Assembly: GCA_020832235.1 (NCBI GenBank)
Contig: JAFIEZ010000007.1
Location: forward strand, 124,001-188,000
DNA from: Bacteroidota bacterium
Lineage (GTDB): Bacteria; Bacteroidota; Rhodothermia; Balneolales; HLUCCA01
Length of the DNA stretch: 64,000 nt
Direction: 5' to 3'
Below the pieces are notes generated by a model. The model was not told where the DNA came from, ran no database searches, and saw nothing but the letters and a program-made list of their open reading frames with translations. How positions within the stretch are numbered: the first letter of the stretch is position 1; the number at the start of each line of letters is the position of its first letter. The position numbers and the translations under genes are program-made. Shown here piece after piece: positions 54,710 through 64,000 of this stretch.

Positions 54710-55600
54710 ATGAAAACCGCCAAACACATAGCCGACCGCATCCGACTGATGATCTCTACCAAACAGTTTCAGGTGGGAGAGACGCTGCCAAGCACTCGGG
54801 AGTTGGGCAAACAGCTGAATTCCAGCTTTCATACCGTGCGAAAAGCCTATCAGATGCTGGTGGAGGAGGGGTTGCTGCGCAGTGAGCGAGGCAGCGGATA
54901 TGTGGTGCACCGCCAGTCCACCTTGCTCGATAAGTCCGCCCGACTCGAAATGGGTGCCGAAAAACTACGCTCCGTGCTCGAAGAGCTCGTAGGGTACGGA
55001 CTGGATGAAGACGAGGTTGAAACGCTTTTTGAAGAACAGCTCATGTTTATGGAGTGGCCCGATCGCTTAAATACCAGCGCCACGGTAGGCGCTACCCGCG
55101 AAATAGGCGACATGATATCCAGAGCTATCCGCGATCAAGTTGGCGTTAAAAGCAAAATCATTACCATCATGGACTATGAAAAAGCCGTGAACTACGACGC
55201 GCTTTTTGTACCCCTGCAATATGTAAGGCAATTCAAAGGTGAATCCGATTCAGGACTCGTACTTCCCGTTGTCTACAGCCTGGATGCCGCTATGCTCATC
55301 GCCATAACCGACCGCGCCGCCGTGAACAACATAGCACTGGTTGCCCGCGAGCAGGGATCATTAACCGTACTCAGCAACGAACTTAAAAATGCCCTGCAGT
55401 TCCCGGGAAGTATCGTTGCAGGCGTTACCGATGGTCGATTCCTCCCGCCTTTTGTTAAGGAAGCAGACCTCGTACTCTACACTCCTGACTGTGCTTCGCT
55501 GGTAGAAAGAGCCCTGCCCGAACGCAAACGCCTGCTGCTGGCCTACCAGATATCCGGGAATACCTCCGAAATCATTCGTTCCGAGCTCTGGGATAATTGA
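54710..55600 (+). CDS. GntR-type regulator of the itaconate-like locus
   Basis: The 296-residue protein has a GntR winged helix (about 1-68, KTAKHIADRIRLMISTKQFQVG, STRELGKQLNSSFHTVRKAYQML and SERGSGYVVHR). A linker and an unrecognised C-terminal domain follow (about 75-296), without UTRA, FCD or aminotransferase signatures. The C-terminal half reads like an alpha/beta sensor fold (SKIITIMDYEKAVNYDALFVPL, GLVLPVVYSLDAAMLIAI, RFLPPFVKEADLVLYTPD), possibly periplasmic-binding-like. It is the first gene in the direction of the CoA-pathway cluster and likely controls it. The effector could be itaconate or a related C5 acid, which is an inference from context. Confidence 0.85.
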   Translation: MKTAKHIADRIRLMISTKQFQVGETLPSTRELGKQLNSSFHTVRKAYQMLVEEGLLRSERGSGYVVHRQSTLLDKSARLEMGAEKLRSVLEELVGYGLDEDEVETLFEEQLMFMEWPDRLNTSATVGATREIGDMISRAIRDQVGVKSKIITIMDYEKAVNYDALFVPLQYVRQFKGESDSGLVLPVVYSLDAAMLIAITDRAAVNNIALVAREQGSLTVLSNELKNALQFPGSIVAGVTDGRFLPPFVKEADLVLYTPDCASLVERALPERKRLLLAYQISGNTSEIIRSELWDN

Positions 55601-55906
55601 GAAAAACTGGCAACACCATTCGTTTCATGCGTAACCAACCCGCTGAAAATCGGTACAGCACTGTTGACTATTGTAAAATTACGTTATGAAAAATCCAGCA
55701 TCATAATCGTGGTGTGCAAATAAAACAAGAATTTAAAGAAAGAGTAGAACCCAAACACAAGTCAAGTTTCCGACGAGAACCTATCTTTTTTTTGTGATTA
55801 CTTGCGATGCCGATTTCCATTATGTACTTTCGTTGTAAGCGCTTTTCCAGGGTCAGTTGGATTCAACAGTGCGAATCAACACGAATCAATAGATTAGAGG
55901 TTTACT
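55601..55906. promoter_or_regulatory. Promoter region upstream of the MBL-fold hydrolase
   Basis: This 306-base gap has two palindromic candidates: TGTAAAATTACG (55672-55683), near-palindromic and like the TGTAAATTTACA before the GntR gene, and TAAGCGCTTTT (55836-55846), containing the palindrome AAGCGCTT. No gene is supported. Confidence 0.45.
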
Positions 55907-56770
55907 ATGAAGATGAAGTCTTGCATTGCAGCTATAGCAATGGTGGCTGTGGGACTGTCTATGGCAGCACCGGCACAGGCACAATCGCCCGAGGGTATGA
56001 AACTCTACATCACCAGCAGTGGTGAACTGAATCTAGATCAGGGCTGGCTAACGGCTATGACCAACCACGGAAATCGAATCGATATTCCAGTCCCCATGTA
56101 CATCATCGATCACCCGGACGGACTCGTTGTCTTCGATACCGGTATGAATATCGCTGTTGTTCCCGACAATGGCGCCGAATACTGGGGACCGGTTGCCGGA
56201 GCTTTTACCCCAACCATGTCACGTGAGCAGGGAATCGATCGTCAGCTCAACCGCATTGGTAAATCGGTTGAAGATGTACGCTATGTAGTGCACTCTCACC
56301 TTCACCTCGACCATGCCGGTAATATCAGCATGTTCCCGAACGCTACACATATCATCCGTAAAGCCGAGCTCCAGAATGCATGGTGGCCCGAGCGATTTCA
56401 GCGCGCCGCATATGTGATGGACGATTTCAAGAGTACCTATCAGCTGAATATCATCGAATTAACCCGCGATCTTGATCTCTTCGGCGACGGAAGTGTAGAA
56501 CTTATAGATACCAAAGGTCATACCAAGGGCCACCAGTCCATGATTGTGCGACTGCCCAACAGCGGCACCATGATTCTGGCTTCCGATGCAGCCTACATGG
56601 CTGAGAACCTGCAAGGGACCGTTCCAGGTATCGTATGGAATGTGGAATACGCTATGGACGCCATCGAGCGTATGAAACTTATCCGCGATATTGAAGGAGG
56701 TAAGATCATTCTCTCTCACTCTATGGAGATGTATAACACACTCAGACATCTGCCACAGTATTATGATTGA
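55907..56770 (+). CDS. Secreted MBL-fold hydrolase, lactonase-like
   Basis: The 287-residue protein has a signal peptide (about 1-25, ending APAQAQ) and a metallo-beta-lactamase fold. The metal motif HSHLHLDHAG (129-138; HxHxDH) is intact, and later ligands are in LIDTKGHTKGHQSM, ILASDAAYM and ILSHSMEMY. Sequence style is nearest to AHL-lactonase/AttM-type and related enzymes that hydrolyse lactones or esters. It should act in the periplasm or outside. A terminator follows the gene, so it is partly separated from the operon downstream. It may open a lactone form of the growth substrate before uptake, or it may quench signals; neither is shown by sequence. Confidence 0.85.
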   Translation: MKMKSCIAAIAMVAVGLSMAAPAQAQSPEGMKLYITSSGELNLDQGWLTAMTNHGNRIDIPVPMYIIDHPDGLVVFDTGMNIAVVPDNGAEYWGPVAGAFTPTMSREQGIDRQLNRIGKSVEDVRYVVHSHLHLDHAGNISMFPNATHIIRKAELQNAWWPERFQRAAYVMDDFKSTYQLNIIELTRDLDLFGDGSVELIDTKGHTKGHQSMIVRLPNSGTMILASDAAYMAENLQGTVPGIVWNVEYAMDAIERMKLIRDIEGGKIILSHSMEMYNTLRHLPQYYD

Positions 56771-56846: not shown

Positions 56847-56936
56847 ATGAATCTGCTTACACTTCTCGCTATTATCATTGCCGTGTATTGGGTAGTAATG
56901 ATGATTTACGTTTACAAAAAAGAAGATTGGACCTAG
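56847..56936 (+). CDS. 29-residue membrane protein, symporter accessory subunit
   Basis: An ATG at 56847 preceded by GGAGG (56838-56842) opens a 29-codon gene encoding one hydrophobic helix (MNLLTLLAIIIAVYWVVMMI) followed by a charged YVYKKEDWT tail. It ends 18 bases before the symporter start. The Shine-Dalgarno is among the best in the window. Small accessory proteins of this kind, upstream of SSS-type symporters, are known in several bacteria. A helix with positive charge on the cytoplasmic side, C-terminal to it, suggests N-out topology. I consider it a likely stabilising or regulatory subunit of the transporter. Confidence 0.8.
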   Translation: MNLLTLLAIIIAVYWVVMMIYVYKKEDWT

Positions 56937-56954
56937 ATTTAAAGGAGTCTGATA

Positions 56955-58472
56955 TTGGAAGAGTTTAGCATTGGTAACTGGGCGTGGTTCTGGCTCGTTT
57001 TCTTCGTAGGAGGTACGATGGGTCTGGGCTTATATGCCATGACTAAAACAAAAACGGATGAAGATTTTGCAGTTGCAAGGAATTCATACGGTCCCTGGCT
57101 GCTGGTTCTCGCCTTAGCCTCCACTATTGCCAGCGGCGCTACATTTATGGGTATCCCGGGAATGGCCTACTCGAAAGGTTTTCCAGCGCTCTGGTACCCT
57201 GCCATTTATCCCATCGGAATTTATATCGGCCTCATACTTTCGGTCCAGTTAATAAAACGCGCCGGCGATATGTTCCGCTCGAACTCCCTGCCCGAGTTTT
57301 TAGGACAGCGGTTTAACAGCGATTTTCTTCGCATTGGCTTTGCCCTTCTCTCTTTGCTGCTCATTTACTACATCGCGGCACAGGTTGTTGCCGCTGCCAC
57401 CACTTTCGAAGTACTCCTTGGTGTAGATTATCGTATCGGAGTAGTGGTTACCGTACTCGTGATTGGTGTCTACATTACCATTGGCGGATCTCATGCCGAC
57501 ATCCTAACCGATGCCTTTCAAGGATTTCTGATGGTGCTCATCGCTTTGCTCATTACCGGACTTTTCATCTTTGGTGTGGGTTTCGATGGAGGAGGAGTTT
57601 CAGCTATTAATGCCTCACTGGAATCGCAGGACCCAACCCTGGGCTGGAGTAATTATTTTTCACCGGGCGATCCTATTTTTGGCAGCTTCCTGTTGGTTAT
57701 GCTCATGTTTATTGCCCACCTGCCATTTTCCATGAATCCCCATATCGGCAATAAAGCATTTGCCCTGAAAGACTCTAAACAGCTTCGCACCTTCCTGCTG
57801 CTGGCCATTCCGATTGGCTCTATTCTCGGCTTTGCAGTACTCGGTGGACTACACTCCCGTGCACTTTTAGGACCAGACCTGCGTCCAGACGCTGCTATTC
57901 CCGCTTTATTTGTAGAGCTTTTCCCACCTGCTTTTGCCGGTTTTCTGGGTATAGCCATTTTATCGGCTATTGTGTCTACTGCCGACGGTTTATTTGTATC
58001 GGTTGCGGTTATTTTTAGTAATGACTTATACCGCAAAACATTTGCCCAGAGAATACATCCTCATAAATCCCAGAAAGAAATTGACCGTATCGCCCTGAAC
58101 ATCTCGCGCGTGGCTACCGTTGGGACGGTTCTGGCAGCCATTGCCATTGCCTGGAACCCACCGGAATTTTTGGCGATACTGCTCTGGGTTGGGGTTGGAG
58201 GAATCATGTCGGGTGCGGCCGGTCCGCTGGTAATTGGTTCAATGTGGCGTCGTTCTACACCCACTGCAGCTATTGCTTCCTTCCTTACAGGTGTAATAGC
58301 CTACGGTGTTATTTATGTAATCATCGGATGGCAGAATCCCTTTGCTGTAGCCGGTGTGTGTACCATTATGGGTAGTGTAGTGATGGTGGTAGTCAGTTTG
58401 TTTACCAAACCAATGGAGGAAGAAAAACTCAATGAAATTTTCTCTCCGGTACGAGAACCTCTCGACTCATAA
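56955..58472 (+). CDS. Sodium:solute symporter of the CoA-pathway operon
   Basis: A TTG start with AAGGAG eight bases upstream gives 505 residues and about 13 transmembrane segments. Family signatures include WFWLVFFVGGTMGLGLYAM, the sodium-site region ASTIASGATFMGIPGMAYSKG and AGFLGIAILSAIVSTADGLFVSVAVIFSNDLYRK, plus GGSHADILTDAFQGFLMV. It is clearly different from the other symporter at 24216, being closer in style to pantothenate/proline/monocarboxylate types. Position in the operon points to a carboxylic acid substrate such as itaconate, mesaconate or citramalate. In Pseudomonas aeruginosa the same pathway uses a TRAP transporter instead. Confidence 0.9.
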   Translation: MEEFSIGNWAWFWLVFFVGGTMGLGLYAMTKTKTDEDFAVARNSYGPWLLVLALASTIASGATFMGIPGMAYSKGFPALWYPAIYPIGIYIGLILSVQLIKRAGDMFRSNSLPEFLGQRFNSDFLRIGFALLSLLLIYYIAAQVVAAATTFEVLLGVDYRIGVVVTVLVIGVYITIGGSHADILTDAFQGFLMVLIALLITGLFIFGVGFDGGGVSAINASLESQDPTLGWSNYFSPGDPIFGSFLLVMLMFIAHLPFSMNPHIGNKAFALKDSKQLRTFLLLAIPIGSILGFAVLGGLHSRALLGPDLRPDAAIPALFVELFPPAFAGFLGIAILSAIVSTADGLFVSVAVIFSNDLYRKTFAQRIHPHKSQKEIDRIALNISRVATVGTVLAAIAIAWNPPEFLAILLWVGVGGIMSGAAGPLVIGSMWRRSTPTAAIASFLTGVIAYGVIYVIIGWQNPFAVAGVCTIMGSVVMVVVSLFTKPMEEEKLNEIFSPVREPLDS

Positions 58473-58483
58473 GTAAACCTTTT

Positions 58484-59044
58484 ATGTTGATACAATGTGC
58501 ATCGGAGCAAGACTGGTCTGATGCCGAAATCCGGCATCAGATTAAGCGGTTGTACCCAATGCGGTACATGCTCAGGAGGCCTGCGTTCCGTGAGCCTTAC
58601 GTACTCTGGTATCCCTGGTATATTTGTCCTGCCGTGGTAAAAATGGATACCGCCTTGATGCGAGGACAAGTTCATGCCGACCGCGTAGCTGTAGACTCGG
58701 TAAGGCCTATGCGCGAGCGACTAGACCGTGTACCAGATATTATTCCAAGGGAAATTGATGATGTCTGTGTTGTACCTTTTCGCCTCCGCTGTGAGCAAGC
58801 CCGTGAAGAAGCACACGATTTGCTAACCACAGTTGTTATTAATCGTAATAAACTCCTTATTTCGCATGAAATTTCAGTAGGAGAACCACAACTTGTGTAC
58901 TTTCGGGTCTTAATTATTCCTGTAGAAGGACTCGAAGAAGATGACTGGCCTGTAATGGAAGAATTTTTTGGAAACTCCTATCGCCTTGCAAGACGACGCG
59001 AACTACGTTCTGTCTTGAAGGAAAACATGCTAACTATGCCATGA
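58484..59044 (+). CDS. Unknown 186-residue protein in CoA-pathway operon
   Basis: I do not recognise this 186-residue protein. It has no signal peptide, no transmembrane segment and few Cys (3). It is rich in Arg and Glu. Segments that may define it are WYPWYICPAVVKMDTALMRG, PREIDDVCVVPFRLRCEQAR, VINRNKLLISHEISVGEPQ and FFGNSYRLARRRELRSVL. It starts 12 bases after the symporter gene and its stop overlaps the lyase start (ATGA), so it is tightly tied to the pathway. It might be a regulatory or adaptor protein; no enzyme motif is visible. Confidence 0.75.
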   Translation: MLIQCASEQDWSDAEIRHQIKRLYPMRYMLRRPAFREPYVLWYPWYICPAVVKMDTALMRGQVHADRVAVDSVRPMRERLDRVPDIIPREIDDVCVVPFRLRCEQAREEAHDLLTTVVINRNKLLISHEISVGEPQLVYFRVLIIPVEGLEEDDWPVMEEFFGNSYRLARRRELRSVLKENMLTMP

Positions 59045-59892
59045 ATATAGACTTAACTACACTTCGGTCGCTGCTTTTTGTGCCAGCCACCAAGCTCAAC
59101 AAGATTACACAGGTGTCTGAAAGCGGCACAGATCTCATTATCATTGATCTGGAAGACAGTGTAAACGTGGCAGAAAAAGACAGCATGCGACAGGCCGTAA
59201 CTACGTTCTTCGAAGAGTGGGAGCCTGAGAAATTCGGCGCAGCAATCGGGGTACGTATTAATTCGGTGCGATCTATCGATGGAGTGCTCGATTTTCTTTC
59301 CATCATGGATACTCCTAATCTGCCCGATGCCCTGATGCTGCCAAAGGTTGATTCTGTAATGGAAATTGATCTGGTGGCTGACTGGATGGAAGACATTGAC
59401 ATCCTCATGCCCGTGATTCCGATCTTCGAGACCCTCGCTGTGTGGGATGAAATCGACGAAATCATGGCCCACGACCTGGTACCCTGTGGCGTTTTTGGCG
59501 GTATTGATCTGGCAGCGGAGTTGGCAAGCGACCGTTCGTGGGAAAGTATGCAGCTGTATCGTAACCTCTTGCTTCGTGCAGCCCGAAGAAGCGATAAGGC
59601 CTGTCTGGATATGCCCTGGTTCGACCTGAACGACGAGGCCGGACTGCGCAAAGAAACCCTACGCCTGCAGTCTATGGGTTACGATGGCCGCGTTGCCATT
59701 CATCCGGCTCAAGTAGCGGTCATTCATGAATGTTTTCGTCCCGACGACCAGGCGGTAGTAGACGCACGCGCCATGATCGATGCGTTTGAACAAAGCAGCA
59801 CCGGCGTAGTAACCTTCAAAGGTAAAGTAGTAGAAAAACCCGTCCTTATGCACGCATATAAATTAATTGAACGCGCGCAGCGCTTCACTTGA
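59041..59892 (+). CDS. CitE-like citramalyl-CoA lyase candidate
   Basis: The 283-residue protein belongs to the HpcH/HpaI-CitE aldolase family. It shows RSLLFVPATKLNKI, TDLIIIDLEDSVNVAEKDSMR (metal and substrate site), VRINSVRS, LPKVDSVMEI, the metal Glu/Asp in VIPIFETLAVWDEI and FGGIDLAAELA, and MGYDGRVAIHPAQVAVI. Such lyases split malyl-, citramalyl- or citryl-type CoA thioesters. Next to a class III CoA-transferase and a MaoC hydratase the best reading is (S)-citramalyl-CoA lyase (Ccl), yielding acetyl-CoA and pyruvate, the last step of itaconate breakdown. Malyl-CoA or beta-methylmalyl-CoA lyase is the alternative. Start and stop overlap neighbours by four bases at the 5' end. Confidence 0.87.
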   Translation: MNIDLTTLRSLLFVPATKLNKITQVSESGTDLIIIDLEDSVNVAEKDSMRQAVTTFFEEWEPEKFGAAIGVRINSVRSIDGVLDFLSIMDTPNLPDALMLPKVDSVMEIDLVADWMEDIDILMPVIPIFETLAVWDEIDEIMAHDLVPCGVFGGIDLAAELASDRSWESMQLYRNLLLRAARRSDKACLDMPWFDLNDEAGLRKETLRLQSMGYDGRVAIHPAQVAVIHECFRPDDQAVVDARAMIDAFEQSSTGVVTFKGKVVEKPVLMHAYKLIERAQRFT

Positions 59893-59918
59893 AACTAACC
59901 TATATCAGAAAGAAGTCC

Positions 59919-61082
59919 ATGCAAATTGATCTCAGTAATAATTTTGATGCATTACGGCAACGCGTACGTGCCATTACAGACAAATATCCCGGTGAATATT
60001 GGAGAGAACTGGACGCTGAACGCAAATATCCGTCCGAATTTGTAGACGAGTTTAGCAAAAGCGGTCTCCTCTCCGTGCTGATTCCCACCGAATACGGCGG
60101 CGAAGGCAGAAGCTTGAGTGAGGCGGCGGTTATCATGGAAGAAATTCAGGCTGCAGGATGCAACGGGGGCACCTGCCATGCCCAGATGTATATCATGGGT
60201 ACGCTGCTTCGTTATGGCAACGAAGACCAGAAGCAACGTTACCTTACTAAAGTCGCGGCCGGAGAGCTGCGCCTTCAGGTATTTGGCGTCACTGAGGAGC
60301 ATACCGGCACCGACACCACCAAACTGCGCACCTTTGCTGAAAAGGTTGATGGCGGATTCAAGGTTAACGGTCATAAATTTTATATTGGTCGGGGACAACA
60401 TTCCGATCTTATGTTGCTGCTTGCCCGCACCACGCCGCTCGACCAGGTTAAGAAAAAAACCGAGGGGTTGTCCATTTTCCTGGTAGACATGCGTGAGGTG
60501 CGCGGGAAAGAGTTGGATATACGTCCCATCCGCACCACTATGAATCACTCGTTGACTGAAATCTTCATCAAGGATTTATTTATTCCCGATGAAAACCTCG
60601 TGGGCGAGCTTGGTAAAGGCTTCCGTTATATTCTCGACAGCATGAACGCCGAGCGGCTGCTGATTGCCGGTGAGTGCATTGGCGATGCCCGATATTTTAT
60701 TGATCAGGCAACCGACTGGGCCAATAAGCGCGAGCTTTTTGGCAGGAAAATAGGTCAGAACCAAGGCATTCAGTTCCCAATCGCCCGAGCCTATGCCAGC
60801 ATGAGAGCTGCCGAAATGATCGTTAAAAAAGGAACGGCCATGTTTGATGCAGGTCAGAAAGTTGGGGAGGAAGCCAATATGGCCCTGCTGCTGGCATCAG
60901 AGGCATCGTGGGAAGCAGGCAATGCGGCAATTCAGACTTTTGGTGGCCGGGGATTTGATGCCAATTATGATATTGAACGTAAATTTCGCGAAACCCGTCT
61001 CTATCAGGTGGCCCCCATATCAAAGAATATGATACTTGCATACCTTTCCGAACATGTTTTGGGTCTTCCGCGCTCGTATTAA
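59919..61082 (+). CDS. Acyl-CoA dehydrogenase
   Basis: I start at ATG 59919 (MQIDLSNNFDALRQRV) with AGAAAGAAG upstream; a TTG at 59889 overlapping the previous stop as TTGA is an alternative. The 387-residue protein has the family's three domains: helical N-terminus, the flavin-binding VFGVTEEHTGTDTTKLRTF, and the C-terminal GGRGFDANYDIERKFRETR with YQVAPISKNMI. An acyl-CoA dehydrogenase gene (PA0879) also accompanies the P. aeruginosa itaconate genes, where its role is unclear. Here it might oxidise methylsuccinyl-CoA to mesaconyl-CoA, widening the range of C5 acids, but this is an inference. Confidence 0.9.
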   Translation: MQIDLSNNFDALRQRVRAITDKYPGEYWRELDAERKYPSEFVDEFSKSGLLSVLIPTEYGGEGRSLSEAAVIMEEIQAAGCNGGTCHAQMYIMGTLLRYGNEDQKQRYLTKVAAGELRLQVFGVTEEHTGTDTTKLRTFAEKVDGGFKVNGHKFYIGRGQHSDLMLLLARTTPLDQVKKKTEGLSIFLVDMREVRGKELDIRPIRTTMNHSLTEIFIKDLFIPDENLVGELGKGFRYILDSMNAERLLIAGECIGDARYFIDQATDWANKRELFGRKIGQNQGIQFPIARAYASMRAAEMIVKKGTAMFDAGQKVGEEANMALLLASEASWEAGNAAIQTFGGRGFDANYDIERKFRETRLYQVAPISKNMILAYLSEHVLGLPRSY

Positions 61083-61197
61083 CGTAAACACGTGGCAACA
61101 GGAATCATCCTGCCGCTTCGCAACCTAAAACATCGCTTCGCAACCTAAAACAGATAGAGATAATCGCAGTGTTTATCATACTTATTAACAGGTATTT
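61083..61197. repeat. 20-bp tandem repeat between operon genes
   Basis: CGCTTCGCAACCTAAAACAT (61114-61133) and CGCTTCGCAACCTAAAACAG (61134-61153) are adjacent direct copies differing in the last base. They fill much of the 115-base gap before the CoA-transferase gene, the only real gap within the operon. A preceding hairpin-like GCAACAGGAATCATCCTGC at 61095-61113 may weakly terminate. Confidence 0.8.
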
Positions 61198-62328
61198 ATG
61201 AAAGTTTTTCGTCCTCTTGAAGGATTAACGGTAGTTTCCATTGAGCAGGCTGTCTCTGCGCCGTATGCTTCGTGCCGACTGGCCGATGCGGGTGCACGCG
61301 TCATAAAGATAGAGCGCGATACGGGAGATTTTGCCCGACAATACGACGAGGCTGTAAATGGTCTGGCGACCTACTTCGTGTGGATCAACCGTGGTAAAGA
61401 ATCAATCCGGCTGAACATCAAGGATGATGCCGACCGTACTATATTTCTGAATATGATCGACCGCGCCGACGTATTTATTCAGAACCTGGCTCCCGGAGCC
61501 CTTGAGAAAATCGGTCTGCATTCCGCCGCCCTGCGCGATCGCAACAATCAACTCATTACCGTTGATATTTCAGGGTATGGTGAGGAAGGCGATTACAGCA
61601 AGATGAAAGCCTACGACAACCTGGTTCAATGCGAGAGCGGACTGGTGGATGTAACCGGCGACGGGGAAATGCGTTCTAAGGTGGGTATTTCCATAGCCGA
61701 TATTTCAGCAGGTGTACATGCCTACTCCGCCGTTCTGGAAGCACTGCACGAGCGAAATAGAACCGGAAAAGGTGTAGGCATTAAAATCTCCATGTTCGAC
61801 TGCATGGCCGACTGGATGATGGTTCCGTATCTGCATCAGGAATATGCCGGAAAAGCACCATCCCGAACAGGCGTACATCATGCCGCCATTTCTCCATATG
61901 GGCCATTTCATACGCGGGAAAACAAGCAGGTTGTGATTGCCATCCAGAATGAAAGGGAGTGGGTGCGCTTTTGCGAAACCGTAACGAATGGGGCAATCCG
62001 TTCCGACGATGCGCGTTACATACGTAATTCGGCACGTGTTGCCAACCGTGATGAACTCAATGCTACTATACAACAGGTATTGCAAGAACTTTCGCATGAG
62101 GAAGTTATTTCCCGACTTGAGCAGGGTTCCATCGCTTATGCCAGGCTGAATACGGTAGCTGATTTTGCGCGGCACCCTCAGTTGCGGATAAAACCGGTTG
62201 ATTCGGAGGCGGGCCCAGTGCGTATCGTCGACCGTCCGGCAAAATTTGTAGGATATACAACATCCTTCGAGCGTATTCCGGATCTGGGCGAACATGAAGA
62301 AGCATTGAAAAAGGAGTTCACCATATGA
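61198..62328 (+). CDS. Class III CoA-transferase, itaconate CoA-transferase candidate
   Basis: The 376-residue protein is a CaiB/BaiF-type CoA-transferase. It begins FRPLEGLTVVSIEQAVSAPYASCRLADAG and continues with VIKIERDTGDFARQYD, FVWINRGKESI, LAPGALEKIG, KAYDNLVQCESGL and the catalytic Asp168 in ISIADISAGVHA. Members exchange CoA between acids such as succinyl-CoA and itaconate (Ict), mesaconate or formate. The YDNLVQCESGL form and the adjacent hydratase and lyase favour itaconate or mesaconate as acceptor. Its stop overlaps the hydratase start (ATGA). Confidence 0.9.
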   Translation: MKVFRPLEGLTVVSIEQAVSAPYASCRLADAGARVIKIERDTGDFARQYDEAVNGLATYFVWINRGKESIRLNIKDDADRTIFLNMIDRADVFIQNLAPGALEKIGLHSAALRDRNNQLITVDISGYGEEGDYSKMKAYDNLVQCESGLVDVTGDGEMRSKVGISIADISAGVHAYSAVLEALHERNRTGKGVGIKISMFDCMADWMMVPYLHQEYAGKAPSRTGVHHAAISPYGPFHTRENKQVVIAIQNEREWVRFCETVTNGAIRSDDARYIRNSARVANRDELNATIQQVLQELSHEEVISRLEQGSIAYARLNTVADFARHPQLRIKPVDSEAGPVRIVDRPAKFVGYTTSFERIPDLGEHEEALKKEFTI

Positions 62329-63302
62329 ATAAACCGTTCAGCGAATGGATTGGTAAAACCCGGCAGTCGTACGATAGTATGGCCGCTGAGACCATGAAAC
62401 GTTACGCTGCAACCATGGACCGCAATCCGGCCCTGGTAGTAGATGACGACCCGCTGTCGCCATGTGCTCATTGGTTCTATTTCACTCCGATGGAAGCTCT
62501 TTCAGAGCTCGCTGAAGACGGACACCCGCATAAGGGAGACTTCCTGCCACCTATTGAGCTTCCACGAAGAATGTGGGCCGGAGGCAGGGTGAAAAACTTG
62601 TCTGCATTACGTACGGGGCGCCCTGCCACCAAAACATCAACCATTACGCGCGTTGAGCAGAAAAACGGTCGAACCGGCTCGCTTTGTTTTGTAACTGTAG
62701 TGCATCAGCTCGAGCAGGGTGGTGTACTTTGCGTAGAGGAAGAACAGGATATCGTTTATCGCGAAGCAGCGCCCAAAGGGGTGGCTCCCAAAAGAGGACA
62801 AGCTATGCCGGGCCGTACCGACTGGACGGAAGTATGGAAGCCCGATGCGGTACAGCTGTTTCGATTTTCAGCCATCACGTTTAATGCGCACCGCATTCAT
62901 TATGATGCCGATTACTGCCGCGATGTAGAGGGATATCCAGCTCCGGTAGTCCACGGACCGCTGTTACTGCACCGTATATTACAAGCATTCACATCCCGCC
63001 ATACTTCCCGTTGTGTCACCCATATCAGCTACCGGGCGATGGGACCGGTTTATCTCGGTGAGACGGTGAAGGTAGGCGGGATTGATGCTTCTGCCCAAAC
63101 CCAGCCTGAATCTCGCAACACAGCTTCCTCCGAAACAGCCGATGTGGCTGGAAAAAAGCTTCCTTCCGATACGCCCGGAGCAAGCGATGCATCCCCAAAA
63201 GGCGATTCAACCGTTCATAGCGGAGTAACAACCATGTTTATATTTGGCTCAGAAGGTAATATCGGCATGCAGGCCGAACTGAGCTGGGAGGAGTCTATTT
63301 AA
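62325..63302 (+). CDS. MaoC-type mesaconyl-C4/itaconyl-CoA hydratase with insert
   Basis: The 325-residue protein has the double hotdog layout of the mesaconyl-C4-CoA hydratase/itaconyl-CoA hydratase (Meh/Ich) group: HWFYFTPMEALSELAEDG and LPPIELPRRMWAGGR in the first part, then FSAITFNAHRIHYDADYCRD and APVVHGPLLLHRIL (about 178-215) in the second. The active-site His/Asp of the hydratase motif are present. The region about 252-300 is a hydrophilic, low-complexity insert rich in Ser, Thr, Ala and Asp, unlike the family. It is bounded by overlaps with both neighbours (ATGA, TAATG). In the itaconate pathway it would hydrate itaconyl-CoA to citramalyl-CoA. Confidence 0.9.
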   Translation: MNKPFSEWIGKTRQSYDSMAAETMKRYAATMDRNPALVVDDDPLSPCAHWFYFTPMEALSELAEDGHPHKGDFLPPIELPRRMWAGGRVKNLSALRTGRPATKTSTITRVEQKNGRTGSLCFVTVVHQLEQGGVLCVEEEQDIVYREAAPKGVAPKRGQAMPGRTDWTEVWKPDAVQLFRFSAITFNAHRIHYDADYCRDVEGYPAPVVHGPLLLHRILQAFTSRHTSRCVTHISYRAMGPVYLGETVKVGGIDASAQTQPESRNTASSETADVAGKKLPSDTPGASDASPKGDSTVHSGVTTMFIFGSEGNIGMQAELSWEESI

Positions 63303-64000
63303 TGAAAACAACCCTGTCACTAACCCGGCTGCTCAGTCGTGAGATGCGCGATCGTGTCATTCGTCGCAAAGATCTCGACGTTGCACTCTATTATACCCTG
63401 GATGTTCTGGGGTCGTATGTGGCCGGAGGTGTAACGGATCAAGGTCAGAAGCTGCGAGAGTATCACCGAATTAACACATTGAAAGGGGTAGAGGCCGAAG
63501 CATTCCTTGCAGCAGCCTTATGCCATATTACTGAAACCGACGACTTGCACAGAAGCTCGGTGACACACCCTGGCTGCGTGGTCATACCGGCCGCTCTTGA
63601 AATGGCCCGCCATCTGGATCTCACCGGAAAAATGGCTCTGGAAGCCGTCGTGGTGGGTTATGAAGTGATGATTCGCATTGGCGATGCTCTGGGCGACAAG
63701 CACTACACGATTTTTCATAATACGGCCACGGCCGGTGTTTTCGGTGCAGCAGCGGCGGCGGCTTATCTGCTAGAACTCAACGAAGACCAATGGGTCTGGG
63801 CACTTGGTAACGCCGGTACACAAGCGGCAGGGCTCTGGCAGTTTAACGTAGATGCAACGATGAGTAAGCATCTGCACGCGGGTCACGCAGCGCAAAGTGG
63901 CATACGAGCTGCTTTGCTGGCCATGCGCGGATTTACAGGTCCGGAACAGATACTGGAGGGCGAGAAAGGGTTTTTCAAAGCGATGTGTCCGGATGCCCGA
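63302..64000 (+). CDS. MmgE/PrpD family protein, 3' end beyond window
   Basis: The frame begins at ATG 63302, overlapping the upstream TAA, and reads through the right edge (233 codons seen of a usual 450-500). It shows the family pattern: LDVALYYTLDVLGSYVAGG, CHITETDDLHRSSVTHPGCVVIPAAL, VVGYEVMIRIGDALG, FHNTATAGVFGAAAAAAYLL and GTQAAGLWQFN with SKHLHAGHAAQSGIRAALLA. The family includes 2-methylcitrate dehydratase (PrpD), cis-aconitate decarboxylase and isomerases. A PrpD-family gene (PA0881) also lies in the P. aeruginosa itaconate operon with uncertain role. The active-site Asp-His segment is complete in the visible part. Confidence 0.9.
   Translation, partial: MKTTLSLTRLLSREMRDRVIRRKDLDVALYYTLDVLGSYVAGGVTDQGQKLREYHRINTLKGVEAEAFLAAALCHITETDDLHRSSVTHPGCVVIPAALEMARHLDLTGKMALEAVVVGYEVMIRIGDALGDKHYTIFHNTATAGVFGAAAAAAYLLELNEDQWVWALGNAGTQAAGLWQFNVDATMSKHLHAGHAAQSGIRAALLAMRGFTGPEQILEGEKGFFKAMCPDAR

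Follow-up and report, generated by a model that had tools for sequence, protein, structure and literature searches.

The stretch of DNA analysed here (the window; 64,000 nucleotides) comprises positions 124001–188000 of contig C13 (JAFIEZ010000007.1), from the 3.38 Mb genome of a Bacteroidota bacterium of the order Balneolales. Towards its 3′ end lies an operon that amounts to a novel variation on the itaconate/methylsuccinate degradation cluster; it is probably fed by a lactone and contains a symporter unit whose architecture is possibly new. An earlier note on this DNA had listed a symporter, a 29-residue open reading frame (ORF), an unknown protein of 186 residues, a CitE-like lyase, an acyl-CoA dehydrogenase (ACAD), a CoA-transferase, a hydratase and an MmgE/PrpD protein; ORF calls and profile searches placed all of the genes named for the operon in the window. 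The secreted metallo-β-lactamase-fold (MBL) protein and the GntR-family regulator that it also described were confirmed, 5′ of the stretch to which it referred. Its description holds at the core but falls short in extent: the window end cuts the PrpD gene, and after the contig had been fetched past the window we observed the 3′ end of this gene followed by genes for an aldehyde dehydrogenase (ALDH) and a zinc alcohol dehydrogenase (ADH).

The operon spans from the MBL gene (55907–56770, forward strand, as are all of the window genes described here), which encodes a probable exported lactonase of the AiiA/AttM type, to the end of the ADH gene at window-equivalent position 67227. The lactonase is followed by a single-span peptide of 29 residues (P29; 56847–56936) directly 5′ of an SSS-family Na+ symporter (56955–58472; Pfam SSF, 154.9 bits), the probable substrate importer, and by an orphan soluble protein of 186 residues (U186; 58484–59044). 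Downstream of these are a CitE/RipC-like CoA-ester lyase (59041–59892), the ACAD (59919–61082), a class III CoA-transferase (CaiB; 61198–62328), a hydratase of the mesaconyl/itaconyl-CoA (Ich/Meh) type (62325–63302; FAS1_DH/MaoC type, Pfam FAS1_DH 28.2 bits) and the MmgE/PrpD protein (63302–64000 in the window; full length 443 residues, with a window-equivalent end at 64633). The ALDH (475 residues, window-equivalent 64732–66159) and the ADH (352 residues, window-equivalent 66169–67227) lie beyond the window. The genes are tightly but unevenly packed. Overlaps were found at three junctions (4 bases between U186 and CitE, 4 between CaiB and the hydratase and 1 between the hydratase and PrpD), at which the description of the genes as mostly joined by overlaps of four bases or fewer holds; elsewhere from the lactonase onward there are gaps of 9–115 bases (for example 11, 26, 115 and 98). 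A 172-base gap 3′ of the ADH gene separates the operon from unrelated ABC-transporter genes.

With U186 and the CitE lyase as markers, 245 genomes of the class were screened for carriers. U186 was found in 13 of these, namely all three genomes of the host genus and ten from a single genus of the Balneolaceae (including Balneolaceae bacterium coassembly_bin.57), which represent two families of the Balneolales. A phylum-wide sample of 395 genomes yielded U186 only in the same two genera; the searches within the phylum were samples. Wherever the fetched contigs reach, the gene order is constant: lactonase, P29, SSS, U186, CitE, ACAD, CaiB, hydratase, PrpD, ALDH and ADH. Since this order is kept across two families, the arrangement is not due to chance. 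Among operon relatives the symporter is 78–93% and the ACAD 79–90% identical, and both retain about 80% identity between the two genera, while U186 (about 31%), CitE (about 37%), the hydratase (about 48%) and PrpD (about 51%) diverge more strongly (range about 28–52%). In one Balneolaceae carrier the ABC gene 3′ of the operon resembles that found here, a hint that the two share a location of long standing. In a scan of named genomes with the ACAD, a Balneolaceae locus was the only one of the best 80 to carry the additional genes for the symporter, U186, ALDH and ADH, and the operon may be more widely distributed.

All five genes of the itaconate–methylsuccinate cluster of P. aeruginosa and C. 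necator (Ich, Mcd, Msi, Ict and Ccl) have homologs here, in agreement with the earlier observation that the P. aeruginosa counterpart also carries ACAD and PrpD genes. With the known cluster on a large-plasmid P. aeruginosa record as the reference, the identities are 56% (Mcd), 46% (Ict), 46% over 252 residues (Ich), 36% (Msi) and 32% (Ccl). The CaiB protein falls into a clade with Ict (support 100/99), with E. coli YfdE and Frc outside, and carries Asp168 within an IADISAG motif; an oxalate/formyl-CoA role for this enzyme is ruled out by the tree. The ACAD aligns with P. aeruginosa Mcd over a common RETRLYQVAPIS motif, and genes for electron-transfer flavoprotein occur in the same genome. All seven residues proposed for Msi (His88, Glu91, His102, Tyr148, His152, Lys202 and Lys266) are kept in the aligned PrpD (as His75, Glu78, His89, Tyr135, His139, Lys189 and Lys252), which retains a glutamate and a tyrosine that are missing from E. 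coli PrpD and an Azospirillum MmgE. The placement of the hydratase in its tree is weakly supported. Close to its C-terminus, the hydratase from the window also has an insert of low complexity, of which its relatives have a short version or none. The enzyme assignments are based on homology, and on these comparisons a core for C5 branched dicarboxylates, consisting of CoA-transferase, hydratase, citramalyl-CoA-type lyase, ACAD and PrpD, is well supported.

The five-gene cluster breaks down methylsuccinate as well as itaconate, its dehydrogenase and isomerase are required only for methylsuccinate, and enzymes of the PA0879 and PA0881 types act on methylsuccinyl-CoA and methylsuccinate (PMC12290011). 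The operon could still serve itaconate or mesaconate, with the lactonase acting on 2-hydroxyparaconate (fungal) or α-methylene-butyrolactone and with the ADH and ALDH as accessories. Homologs of the Ict, Ich and Ccl types are indeed present, P. aeruginosa Ict takes itaconate as well as (R)-methylsuccinate, and the P. aeruginosa cluster itself has a 2-hydroxyparaconate lactonase gene (PMC9875883). That lactonase, however, is a VOC protein and not an exported MBL; the ACAD and PrpD, which are unneeded for itaconate, are nevertheless kept in every complete operon; and the ADH and ALDH would stay largely unexplained. We therefore regard an itaconate operon as unlikely, although it deserves serious consideration. 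Conversion of a lactone or hydroxy acid to methylsuccinate fits better than itaconate because the ACAD and PrpD match methylsuccinate enzymes and because the same operon encodes a lactonase for export together with the ADH and ALDH. Of the substrates proposed previously, methylsuccinate agrees with these matches, whereas itaconate from immune cells or fungi is a less likely point of entry.

The lyase is the least secure member of this core. Its residues Arg72, Glu130 and Asp156 align with the CitE family, and its nearest relative among curated families and solved structures is RipC, although its score on NCBIfam RipC_Ccl (NF038242; 193 bits) does not reach the cut-off of 375 bits. In this respect the operon resembles the Y. 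pestis RipABC itaconate operon, from which it differs in its class III CoA-transferase and in the addition of ACAD and PrpD. It differs from the P. aeruginosa and C. necator cluster in its RipC-like lyase, in having an SSS unit in place of a tripartite ATP-independent periplasmic (TRAP) transporter and a GntR in place of a LysR regulator, in the added exported MBL lactonase, ALDH and ADH, and in its Balneolales rather than Pseudomonadota host. The Ict–Ich–Ccl core proposed in the earlier note thus stands for an Ict-clade transferase and an Ich homolog, but the lyase is nearer to RipC than an ortholog of Ccl. As to whether core enzymes group with those of another pathway, the CoA-transferase does not, and the lyase fails to group with P. 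aeruginosa Ccl. It may nevertheless act as Ccl does.

The same chemistry might instead be applied to another 2-substituted succinate, with a different alkyl or larger group, for which some other lactone, hydroxy acid or diol would be the source. The divergence of CitE, U186, the hydratase and PrpD between genera, against the near constancy of ACAD and SSS, would be in keeping with this, as would the higher identity of PrpD to uncharacterized Aminobacter and Chelatococcus proteins (42–46%) than to P. aeruginosa Msi, and the Msi pocket may accept larger C3-modified substrates (PMC12290011). Given that CaiB belongs to the Ict group and that the Msi residues and the Mcd motif are intact, we consider such a different 2-substituted succinate to be improbable on balance.

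The MBL protein has the sequence HLHLDH at residues 131–136 and Asp-Ala-Ala-Tyr at 227–230; these metal ligands (HxHxDH) and the Asp-Ala-(Ala/Ser)-Tyr segment align with AiiA structures. Its NCBIfam scores (AttM, 214 bits; AiiA, 157 bits) reach neither cut-off (390 and 375 bits, respectively). A signal peptide is present in this protein and in its relatives, which elsewhere in the phylum were found only in the same two genera, apart from one homolog of 31% identity. Among curated families and solved structures its best matches are N-acyl homoserine lactone (AHL) lactonases, so that it could be a quorum-quenching enzyme that merely neighbours a C5-diacid operon. In both families, however, it lies directly 5′ of the symporter unit in all carriers with contigs that extend to it, its score is far from the AttM cut-off, and AttM/BlcC is itself part of a γ-butyrolactone operon; an AHL function therefore seems very improbable.

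The Agrobacterium blcABC (attKLM) operon also combines an AttM-type lactonase with an alcohol and an aldehyde dehydrogenase; it opens γ-butyrolactone and oxidizes the product to the semialdehyde (PMC5924552). The same logic, in which a lactone yields a hydroxy acid and this in turn a semialdehyde, is proposed here. The blcABC route ends at succinate without CoA enzymes, whereas the present operon has an exported lactonase and five C5-CoA pathway genes; the five extra enzymes point to a branched diacid and not to succinate. Together, the exported lactonase, ADH, ALDH and methylsuccinate module suggest a coherent route from methyl-γ-butyrolactone. In Rubrobacter, Msi/Mcd-type genes are independently found together with those for ADH and ALDH. 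We also note that on a Skermanella rosea plasmid (L153:8001–15640) an ALDH which is 59% identical to that of the operon is accompanied by a TRAP transporter, a zinc dehydrogenase and CaiB and CitE-like genes; this is possibly a related pathway from an alcohol to a CoA-ester lyase without ACAD or hydratase.

The small protein encoded 5′ of the symporter is exactly 29 residues long in 12 loci and ends in KEDWT. Its ratio of synonymous to nonsynonymous changes is 4.1, compared with 0.26 expected without selection, and P29 is under purifying selection; the previously described pairing of an SSS symporter (in place of TRAP) with a 29-residue partner is a conserved one. U186 is an orphan, as had been supposed, with no match in Pfam, NCBIfam or the Protein Data Bank (PDB). 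Its AlphaFold2 model has a pLDDT of 91, and a fold search of the PDB with this model gave no match at E < 0.001. Wherever the contigs fetched for the Balneolales carriers extend far enough, the symporter is flanked by the small ORF on the 5′ side and U186 on the 3′ side.

The best plasmid relatives of the symporter are haloarchaeal (about 40–43% identity). At four such plasmid loci (Halomarina, Halalkalicoccus and two Natrinema records) a protein of about 190–204 residues follows the symporter, and a membrane ORF of 43–45 residues is annotated before it in three of the four (both Natrinema records and Halomarina). A U186 profile scored 26, 19 and 11 bits against three of the symporter-following proteins, and profile–profile comparison gave 90% probability, with a pairwise E of 1.6e-6 over 120 columns. 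A direct tblastn search of the plasmids with U186 gave no match, and the plasmid counterparts were found only via the symporter. The homology is modest by score, but is strengthened by the shared position after the symporter. P29 and U186 are probably transporter partners because their counterparts flank the same type of symporter on haloarchaeal plasmids. The 186-residue protein had earlier been listed as unknown; its haloarchaeal position and profile match make it more probably a symporter partner than an enzyme of the pathway. We also considered U186 as a partner of CitE (the genes are adjacent with a 4-base overlap and both evolve fast), and rejected this since its homologs follow the symporter in haloarchaeal loci, where no CitE was found in the fetched stretches.

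The haloarchaeal loci differ from the operon in having other enzyme subfamilies, a class I CoA-transferase and no AiiA-type lactonase directly adjoining, but they also hold alcohol or aldehyde dehydrogenases. The Halomarina plasmid (L152:503–12350) encodes two ACADs, a Zn-ADH, MmgE/PrpD, MaoC and a succinate-CoA-transferase-like protein, followed by the small ORF, SSS, the U186-like protein and an Fe-ADH, and possibly represents an archaeal equivalent of the pathway. The haloarchaeal Fe-ADH is annotated as a `hydroxyacid-oxoacid transhydrogenase', but NCBIfam gives no above-cut-off support for a 4-hydroxybutyrate enzyme and it was not used to assign a substrate. We tentatively propose, while thinking it rather doubtful in its entirety, that P29–SSS–U186 is a three-component sodium symporter for hydroxylated short-chain compounds which is common to Balneolales and haloarchaea, and that in Balneolales it feeds an undescribed pathway from methyl-γ-butyrolactone via methylsuccinate to acetyl-CoA and pyruvate.

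In our view, the most consistent interpretation is a catabolic operon in which a lactone is opened outside the cell and the imported hydroxy acid is oxidized to methylsuccinate, which is then broken down to acetyl-CoA and pyruvate; we give this about an even chance of being correct. From its family, active site and signal peptide, the lactonase would open a small γ-lactone in the periplasm, and the 4-hydroxy acid would enter through P29–SSS–U186. Oxidation of its terminal alcohol by the ADH and ALDH would then give a dicarboxylate, for which methylsuccinate is the most likely candidate. By homology to characterized enzymes, PrpD would interconvert the stereoisomers of methylsuccinate, CaiB would form the CoA ester, the ACAD would act as a methylsuccinyl-CoA dehydrogenase to give mesaconyl-C4-CoA, the hydratase would yield citramalyl-CoA and CitE would split the latter into acetyl-CoA and pyruvate. 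The entry compound would be α- or β-methyl-γ-butyrolactone or its hydroxy acid (4-hydroxy-methylbutanoate), and methylsuccinate or itaconate could also join lower in the pathway.

Several observations weigh against this interpretation. The substrate, methyl-γ-butyrolactone or its hydroxy acid, is one that we infer from what the genes suggest, and our literature search found no paper on methyl-lactone breakdown by the proposed route. The ADH and ALDH both belong to broad families, and none of the operon enzymes reaches the cut-off of an NCBIfam equivalog. ACAD homologs of 60–65% identity also occur in other bacteria without other pathway genes, and the ACAD match alone is therefore not specific. 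CitE lies outside the P. aeruginosa Ccl clade in the tree, and is nearest to RipC (PDB entry 3QLL, its best solved relative) and an Azospirillum lyase. A literature search on Balneolaceae with itaconate likewise found no relevant paper.

Almost all reported methylsuccinate isomerases (96.2%) come from Pseudomonadota, and where methylsuccinate originates in nature was described as unclear until recently (PMC12290011). If our interpretation is correct, the operon would represent, in another phylum, a concrete and testable source of methylsuccinate, formed from a lactone or hydroxy acid, and would extend the known methylsuccinate/itaconate pathway with a pump arrangement common with salt-loving archaea. 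A symporter with two small partners, kept across domains, would be a transporter architecture for which the libraries searched describe no family, and the transporter-partner assignment gives the orphan U186 a testable role.

The GntR-family regulator (54710–55600) has a helix–turn–helix domain (Pfam PF00392, 60.6 bits) and a C-terminal domain without a Pfam match. It adjoins the operon only in the host genus (found in L024) and is not beside it in the Balneolaceae carriers. Repeated GAATCAA motifs at 55860–55895, between the GntR and lactonase genes, could be GntR operator sites. The gap between ACAD and CaiB (61083–61197) contains a tandem repeat of about 20 bases (ATCGCTTCGCAACCTAAAAC-like), which may be an internal regulatory element. 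Finally, in two genomes of the same order (L032:8364–10510 and L033:2153–4351), a small MaoC-like gene lies between two CitE-like genes in an apparent surface-polysaccharide locus that includes a sugar nucleotidyltransferase and an aminotransferase.

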